This document shows positions 40,933 to 41,586 of a stretch of DNA of 64,000 nt, piece by piece; the first letter of the stretch is position 1; the number at the start of each line of letters is the position of its first letter. The position numbers and the translations under genes are program-made. Under the pieces are notes generated by a model. That model ran no database searches. It saw only the letters and a list, made by a program, of their open reading frames with translations, and had not been told where the DNA came from. The stretch is from Falsirhodobacter algicola. Its GTDB lineage: Bacteria > Pseudomonadota > Alphaproteobacteria > Rhodobacterales > Rhodobacteraceae. The DNA lies in NCBI RefSeq assembly GCF_018279165.1, contig NZ_CP047289.1, positions 1,424,501 to 1,488,500 on the forward strand, read 5' to 3'.

Positions 40933-40961
40933 TTGACATGCCTCCGATCTGTGCCAACCTC
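40933..40961 (+). promoter_or_regulatory. Promoter-like element before the mini-ORF RNA
   Basis: A perfect -35 TTGACA (40933-40938) lies seven bases after the yhhQ stop. Seventeen bases on is AACCTC (40956-40961), a poor -10. Suggests an independent transcript starting near 40968. Confidence 0.4.
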
Positions 40962-40981: not shown

Positions 40982-40998
40982 GAAAGGAGGTGATCCAG
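40982..40998 (+). promoter_or_regulatory. Extreme ribosome-binding site, 17-base complement to 16S rRNA 3' end
   Basis: GAAAGGAGGTGATCCAG is the exact reverse complement of the usual alphaproteobacterial 16S 3' tail (CTGGATCACCTCCTTTC). Ordinary SD sites match 4-8 bases. GGAGG is seven bases before the GTG codon, the optimal distance. Confidence 0.8.
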
Positions 40999-41054
40999 TG
41001 TCGAGAGTGATATTGGAGAGAGGTGTCGGGACAGTCGGAGGGCACTTCAGCTAG
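40998..41054 (+). CDS. 18-residue mini-ORF (possible leader peptide)
   Basis: GTG start to TAG stop encodes MSRVILERGVGTVGGHFS. The ribosome-binding site is as strong as it can be. Codons AGA (twice), ATA, TTG and GGA are unusual for this GC-rich genome, where CGC/CGG, ATC and CTG dominate. The peptide has no membrane segment. Given position in a structured RNA directly upstream of arfB, a leader peptide or translation sensor is more likely than a functional protein, but a free small protein cannot be excluded. Confidence 0.6.
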   Translation: MSRVILERGVGTVGGHFS

Positions 41055-41123
41055 GGGCAGCCCCCAAGCGGAACACCCATCGATTGGGATGAAACCTAAC
41101 TGGCTCATCTCCTTGGATCTCGG

Positions 41124-41156
41124 AAAGGGTCGTCGGCCGTGACGGCCCTTTCTCTA
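41124..41156 (+). terminator. Terminator-like hairpin directly before arfB
   Basis: AAAGGGTCGTC (41124-41134) pairs with GACGGCCCTTT (41141-41151), 11 bp with one G-U and a 6-base loop, followed by CTCT. It ends only 13 bases before the arfB ATG, in the place its SD should be, so it can act as terminator, attenuator or both. Confidence 0.6.
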
Positions 41157-41163
41157 TGAAATC

Positions 41164-41586
41164 ATGCTGCATATTACAGACACTCTTCACATCGCCGACT
41201 GGGAATTGACGGAACATTTCGTGCGCGCCTCCGGGCCGGGCGGGCAGAACGTCAACAAGGTCGCGACGGCGGTCGAACTGCGGTTCGAGGCCGAACGCTC
41301 CCCCCATCTGCCGGGGCCGGTGAAGGCGCGGCTGAAACGGCTGGCCGGGCGGCGCTGGACGCAGGAAGGTGCGCTGATCCTTCAGGTGGACGAGACCCGG
41401 TCGCAGGCCCGCAACCGCGAAATCGCGCGCGAGCGGCTGGCCGGGCTGATCCGTCAGGCGCTGGTGGCGCCGAAGCGGCGCATTCCGACCAAGCCGACCT
41501 TGGGCAGCCAGAGGCGGCGGCTCGCTGCCAAGGCGAACCGCGCCCAGATCAAGGCCGGGCGCGGCAACATCACGGACGAGGACTGA
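41164..41586 (+). CDS. arfB: Alternative ribosome-rescue factor B (peptidyl-tRNA hydrolase)
   Basis: A 140-residue class I release-factor-like protein. The catalytic loop ASGPGGQNVNK (GGQ 26-28) and the long basic C-terminal tail (PTKPTLGSQRRRLAAKANRAQIKAGRG), which enters the empty mRNA channel, are both present. ArfB/YaeJ hydrolyses peptidyl-tRNA on ribosomes stalled at mRNA ends. No SD precedes the ATG; a hairpin and TATGAAATC occupy that space. It converges with ctpA, three bases apart. Confidence 0.94.
   Translation: MLHITDTLHIADWELTEHFVRASGPGGQNVNKVATAVELRFEAERSPHLPGPVKARLKRLAGRRWTQEGALILQVDETRSQARNREIARERLAGLIRQALVAPKRRIPTKPTLGSQRRRLAAKANRAQIKAGRGNITDED

Follow-up and report, generated by a model that had tools for sequence, protein, structure and literature searches.

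The window, which is the whole 64,000-nucleotide stretch of Falsirhodobacter algicola DNA analyzed here, contains an open reading frame (ORF) of only 18 codons behind a Shine-Dalgarno (SD) sequence of 17 bases, and the locus raises the question of what this combination is, how it might work, and what selection maintains in it. A preliminary description made from the DNA letters held that no described system fits; as far as can be told this is wrong, as the element reads as rreR. We take it, almost certainly in this reading, to be that 18-amino acid relative of Bradyrhizobium rreB. The element is almost certainly known already in kind; what is possibly new is that, in the Rhodobacteraceae type, the predicted fold buries the start codon in a hairpin and pairs the SD with a second, downstream stretch that copies the 16S tail.

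An extended Shine-Dalgarno sequence

The sequence GAAAGGAGGTGATCCAG is complementary to 17 bases of the Rhodobacteraceae 16S rRNA 3' tail, and its final G doubles as the G that opens the GTG start codon (40998-41000), which bears out the earlier claim of a 17-base complement to the alphaproteobacterial 16S tail running into the GTG (Table 1). The tail used for this comparison is that of relatives: the genome's own 16S has no match in the assembly, and the 16S-tail pattern was found in 0/7 genomes of the genus. A 51-base 16S tail query was searched against plasmid records and matched 218 of them (100% in Rhodobacter, Cereibacter, Paracoccus and Ruegeria), at sites presumed to be rRNA operons, as RNA genes are unannotated in those records; the end of this tail complements each of the 17 bases exactly. 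In rreR a small ORF is expected to be preceded by 16 or more bases that complement the 16S 3' end; here there are 17, with the tail of relatives standing in for the 16S absent from this assembly.

The exact 17-mer occurs once in the 2.78 Mb genome, and the single further site with no more than two mismatches lies in the interior of a coding frame, as judged from our own translation. The 12-mer core AAAGGAGGTGAT also occurs once, and its reversed control not at all.

Table 1. Features of the element and the adjacent gene; coordinates are positions in the window, and helices, promoter and terminator are predictions.
Feature	Coordinates	Strand	Basis
-35-like TTGACA	40933..40938	+	TTGAC upstream in 36/47 Rhodobacteraceae-type copies
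-10-like CAACCT (CANNCT in many relatives)	40955..40960	+	Comparison by eye
Extended Shine-Dalgarno, 17 bases, complement of 16S 3' tail	40982..40998	+	Sequence, locus comparison, 16S-tail match
P1 5' strand, SD core AAGGAGGTGA	40984..40993	+	Minimum-energy fold, pair counts
H1 hairpin over start codon, TCCAGTGTC (40994-41002) with GATATTGGA (41009-41017)	40994..41017	+	Pair counts
18-codon ORF taken to be rreR, GTG start, TAG stop (41052-41054), VSRVILERGVGTVGGHFS	40998..41054	+	Locus comparison, alignment
P2 helix, in which 41032-41040 pairs with 41078-41086 across the end of the ORF	41032..41086	+	Pair counts
Small G+C hairpin at stop codon, GGGG/CCCC core	41050..41069	+	Minimum-energy fold, locus sequences
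P1 3' strand TCATCTCCTT, within 16S-tail mimic 41099-41114	41105..41114	+	Fold, pair counts, shuffle control
Intrinsic terminator, 14-bp stem in fold, T-rich tail	41122..41153	+	Minimum-energy fold, pattern scan
arfB, ribosome rescue aminoacyl-tRNA hydrolase	41164..41586	+	NF006718, 182.7 bits against a cut-off of 100

Distribution and types of the element

A blastn search of 61 genomes with the segment 40930-41166 as query finds the element in 31 of them, the window's own included, and these comprise 31/37 genomes of the window's family and 0/24 outside it; the same segment has no match among the plasmid records. The exact 17-mer is kept in 18/30 of the loci fetched by blastn (own included), and 26/30 have no more than one mismatch. 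A look at relatives was one of the checks proposed in the preliminary description, and conservation there is strong. A chance match was considered and is ruled out by the uniqueness of the 17-mer in the genome together with its conservation.

A pattern scan of public genomes for the SD yields at least 119 stretches which, having been selected by that SD, give no independent evidence on its conservation. Among the 80 matches listed, all are alphaproteobacterial by label save three metagenome-assembled genomes (MAGs) labelled Proteobacteria and one Gemmatimonadota MAG, in which the match could reflect chance, transfer or misbinning; 39 further loci give the same picture.

Among the collected copies, the length of the ORF follows the type of peptide. 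Copies of the VSRxxLE type, referred to here as the Rhodobacteraceae type, have 18 codons in 47/48 cases, the MSHG type (Sphingomonadales by label) has 18 in 17/17, and the KRCHLAG type (four Bradyrhizobium and one Xanthobacteraceae) has 14 in 5/5; one of the groupings used length to define the latter two types, and a separate grouping by peptide finds neither at another length. The 39 further loci include two MSHG copies with ORF lengths of 20 and 59. Peptide types differ from taxa, such that one copy from the window's own family (L028) is counted among the 88 copies of other types. In the Bradyrhizobium loci the same SD precedes ORFs for 14-amino acid peptides, VSYLKRCHLAGIAR among them.

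Predicted transcript

The promoter-like and terminator motifs in Table 1 suggest a small mRNA that is transcribed independently, from a predicted promoter to a predicted terminator, with a length of ~190 bases and a probable start at ~40967. A strict promoter scan found no promoter, and the terminator pattern scan returned one site, against 0.9 expected in shuffles.

Many Rhodobacteraceae-type copies have a stretch like TTGACAAACACAAAATCTGTGGCAGGCT within 72 bases upstream of the SD (40933-40960 in the window). A near-palindrome, CACAAAATCTGTG, lies in the -35/-10 spacer of many copies and is perhaps a regulator site; in the window copy the -35 and -10 motifs are kept and the palindrome is poorer. 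The pattern CTTG-N14..19-C[CT]AT, which corresponds to the idea of a heat-shock-type promoter, is present in 20/133 stretches and in 4/266 control stretches.

Predicted RNA fold and a copy of the 16S tail

The minimum-energy fold of the window RNA has a free energy of -81.1 kcal/mol (z -3.43). A first register for P1, at alignment columns 8-21, was discarded after the minimum-energy fold and replaced by P1 plus H1.

Covariation was evaluated in 42 Rhodobacteraceae-type sequences, from which four sequences without a mimic-like match and two duplicates had been omitted, a choice that flatters P1. Taken together, P1, H1 and P2 are 88.5% paired in these sequences and 42-47% paired when slid; cells changed on both sides number 43, against 17.7 in shuffles, and the covariation score exceeds all 500 shuffles and lies far above the slid controls. 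Other measures discriminate less: the nine pairs with two-sided change are equalled by a slide of -1, and the number of pair types is reached by 56/500 shuffles. The three helices contribute unequally. H1 is paired in 96.8% of cells and has two pairs with two-sided change, and most of the covariation is in P2, where six of nine pairs have changes on both sides. In P1 covariation is limited to one pair, and 20/42 sequences cannot form that pair; the two outermost pairs of the helix are missing in 17/42 and 19/42. RNAalifold, given the same alignment, proposes P1 and H1, with P2 absent.

Pairing of the SD with the distal region has a mean probability above 0.5 in 45/48 copies, and such distal pairing is still seen in 63% of 576 shuffles of the whole 3' region. 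A control in which the terminator was kept, and from which the 3/48 copies without a mimic-like match were omitted (this too flatters P1), gives pairing above 0.5 in 45/45 copies versus 51% of 540 shuffles, and above 0.9 in 34/45 versus 6.3%. In a test of the duplex only, p<=0.05 is reached by 26/45 copies of the Rhodobacteraceae type, 11/39 of the MSHC type, 0/15 of the Sphingomonadales type, 2/7 of the Phyllobacteriaceae-like type, 1/5 of the Bradyrhizobium type and 9/20 others. Locking of the SD by the mimic is fairly supported for the Rhodobacteraceae by these predictions. A 16S mimic throughout the class was considered and dropped, as the duplex-only test gives no support for the class as a whole. 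One Rhodospirillaceae locus (L142) has CGGATCACCTCC ~103 bases past the SD, and this 12-mer is fully complementary to the SD of the locus.

Energies and a proposed mechanism

Binding of the 17-mer to 16S is calculated at -32.4 kcal/mol and opening it costs 12.7, a net of about -20 kcal/mol; opening the SD, the start codon and 15 more bases costs 17.8 kcal/mol. A 9-mer SD is calculated at -12.5 versus 6.2 to open, a net of about -6 kcal/mol, and would also bind. When the RNA is folded only to 41100, and thus lacks the mimic, opening the 17-mer costs 9.1 kcal/mol, and the mimic adds only ~3.6. By these energies, local structure such as H1 contributes more to the opening cost than the mimic does, and the long SD gives the 30S subunit a wide margin over the fold, although one that is not strictly required.

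The reading we lean toward, with little better than even confidence, is that of a small mRNA, partly locked by its own fold, in which binding of the 30S subunit governs both translation and decay. Comparison of the copies points to a conserved fold in which the downstream copy of the 16S tail is predicted to pair with the SD and the start codon to be held in its hairpin. A 30S subunit would have to displace this fold, with the 17-bp duplex supplying a large margin, and having bound may clear slowly, in line with what is reported for rreB/rreR; slow clearance would make translation weak and tie the lifetime of the RNA to 30S binding. The ORF would be translated to a fixed length, its stop codon meeting a hairpin, and the peptide would have little weight. 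The preliminary description expected tight 30S binding to slow initiation clearance, and the idea that such binding hinders translation and does not boost it agrees with what Hahn et al. 2017 reportedly found. Our confidence in this mechanism is lowered because a 9-base SD binds too and the mimic adds so little to the opening cost; also against it are the frequent failure of P1 pairs and the distal SD pairing that persists in shuffled 3' regions (63% and 51%). Also to be weighed against it is that, in ribosome profiling of Caulobacter, non-coding RNA regions taken as a group are reported to be mostly untranslated (PMC4117421).

An alternative is that the RNA acts in trans, as a 30S decoy or a regulatory RNA, with the ORF a by-product. 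The strength of the 17-bp duplex with the 16S tail would suit such a role, as would a fold that covaries and the naming of relatives as sRNAs, which include Rfam CC2171 and the Mesorhizobium huakuii sRNA MH_s33, listed under RF01867 (PMC5596092). A by-product would not, however, be expected to be exactly 18 codons long in 41/42 aligned copies with interchangeable stop codons, and one locus per genome would probably supply too little RNA to titrate many 30S subunits, except at very high abundance; we consider a role in trans unlikely.

The adjacent arfB gene

The element is flanked by a gene for a queuosine precursor transporter (TIGR00697, 40303-40926) and by arfB, which starts 10 bases past the terminator with no SD visible by eye. 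By a strict motif, arfB lies within 450 bases downstream in 32/48 Rhodobacteraceae-type copies (31/46 when two same-contig pairs are each counted once), and a looser motif adds one arfB-linked copy (L074); the 39 further loci include five of this type, of which three have arfB; of the remaining two, one has sequence for only 242 bases past the SD. Near the copies of other types arfB is found in 0/88, of which three have less than 450 bases to look in, and no arfB-like GGQ frame is present within 800 bases at the 30 loci scoring best against RF01867. At four loci (L063, L070, L087 and L097) an arfB-like motif is not directly adjacent but 1.15 to 1.65 kb away on the downstream side, which would fit an insertion of genes, and at three others (L033, L035 and L036) the post-terminator ORF reads, from a VDAD motif seen by eye, like a YaiI/YqxD protein and not arfB.

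This arrangement raises the prospect of a cis-acting leader or attenuator, in which translation of the mini-ORF decides terminator read-through into the rescue gene. The frequent proximity of arfB, its start close behind the terminator without a recognizable SD, and the nature of ArfB, itself a translation-rescue factor, speak for such an arrangement. Neither the minimum-energy nor the centroid fold, however, has an antiterminator that competes with or excludes the terminator; the linkage to the putative regulated gene is not constant, with 16/48 copies of the type lacking arfB by the strict motif and none of the other types having it; and the mini-ORF encodes no run of a single amino acid in the aligned copies. 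A literature search, with most subscription papers outside its reach, found no link of arfB or RF01867 to this mini-ORF. Coupling of the mini-ORF to arfB is possible, and attenuation of this kind improbable. More doubtful still is that in the Rhodobacteraceae the RNA is a self-contained 30S gauge. Because one molecule has both the perfect complement of the 16S tail and a copy of that tail, the mimic would compete with 30S subunits for the SD, and the outcome would set RNA decay and leakage into arfB; if true, this would make the rescue of ribosomes depend on how many subunits are free.

What is selected in the reading frame

The 42 aligned copies have no gaps, and in the 41 that stop after 18 codons the stop is TAG in 19 copies, TGA in 15 and TAA in seven. 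Of the blastn-fetched loci, 27/30 also have exactly 18 codons at a fixed position, and the 18-codon ORF expected of rreR is thus conserved in the Rhodobacter/Roseobacter lineage; among these 30 loci the distance from SD to start is shorter by one base in two (L022 and L027), and L028 differs. Rare codons had been pointed out in the mini-ORF, correctly: AGA and ATA are each used 0.55 times, ACA 2.0 times and TTG 4.25 times per 1000 codons in a sample of window ORFs (33 in number, each 250 amino acids or longer and with GC3 >0.8), a selection that favours codons ending in G or C.

Entropies at codon positions 1, 2 and 3 are 0.725, 0.695 and 0.729 (42 sequences), with no excess of variation at third positions, which H1 and P2 also constrain within the ORF. 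Because entropy is equal over the codon positions and yet the 18-codon frame is kept with any of three stops, it seems that a fixed-length ORF is maintained and must be translatable, and that the peptide is secondary; conservation of the element looks to be RNA-driven. The weakest reading, a functional 18-amino acid micro-protein, has in its favour the fixed length and the recurrent L-E and V-G-T residues, but is highly improbable given the even third-position variation, the conserved TTGGA that H1 pairing accounts for, and the unrelated peptides of 14 to 31 amino acids that other types carry behind the same SD. The suggestion of a strongly expressed micro-protein, made in the preliminary description, finds no support in this evenness over codon positions, nor in an SD and start codon that are predicted to be paired.

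Relationship to known systems

In this element family SD pairing reaches an extreme, and it does so within a class whose genes can often do without an SD: in Caulobacter 75.4% of genes have none (PMC4117421). The internal 16S mimic, if real, would offer a clean system for the effects of over-tight SD pairing on initiation and mRNA decay, and joining rreB/rreR, Rfam CC2171 and the Sphingomonadales copies allows existing transcript data to be pooled.

Hahn et al. 2017 (RNA Biol 14:1353-1363) reportedly described rreB and rreR as small mRNAs with an SD of 17 bases that complements the 3' end of 16S, a GTG start and a tiny ORF, said to be of 14 codons in Bradyrhizobium and 18 in the Rhodobacter/Roseobacter lineage. 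The RNA is said to be a small separate transcript that co-sediments with 30S subunits and is weakly translated, and reportedly is stabilised when a stop codon replaces the start codon. The extended 17-base SD, the GTG start and the tiny ORF are, by that description, common to rreB/rreR and the window element.

The profile of RF01867 (CC2171, a Caulobacter sRNA) matches the window copy over the full model length with 28.8 bits (E 0.00015) against a gathering cut-off of 75, and at Rfam's cut-offs no RNA family is found in the window; the window copy is a relative of RF01867, and not a member by Rfam's rule. Sub-threshold matches are present in 20/20 of the loci scanned (of the 30 fetched). Among 385 genomes of the class, 96 match at E<=0.01, own included, and 13 are above the cut-off; the lowest-scoring of these may be chance matches, because the profile also matches 2/14 genomes used as controls (those of Caulobacter vibrioides and of a Deinobacterium, one of the two above the cut-off). 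The 30 best-scoring RF01867 loci all have the SD (with no more than three mismatches) and a short ORF, and the five 14-codon loci all match, at 59.0, 49.7, 42.1, 41.7 and 28.3 bits, each below the cut-off. At one locus (L027, 1370-1447) the 3' part of the element has a weak match to RF02353, the Bradyrhizobium sRNA family BjrC68 (E 0.0029, 28.3 bits, cut-off 39).

CC2171 shares its SD and the position of its terminator with the window element, although Rfam labels it 'sRNA' and names no ORF, whereas the window element has an ORF of 18 codons. The rnTrpL/peTrpL RNA of Sinorhizobium is likewise a short alphaproteobacterial RNA with a tiny ORF but, unlike the window element, its 14-amino acid ORF is leaderless, belongs to the trp attenuator and lacks an extended SD (PMC10117765). 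The extended SDs of Staphylococcus aureus form a long start-proximal SD:16S duplex as in the window element, but are located on ordinary genes, where they are said to help start-codon selection (PMC13009471).
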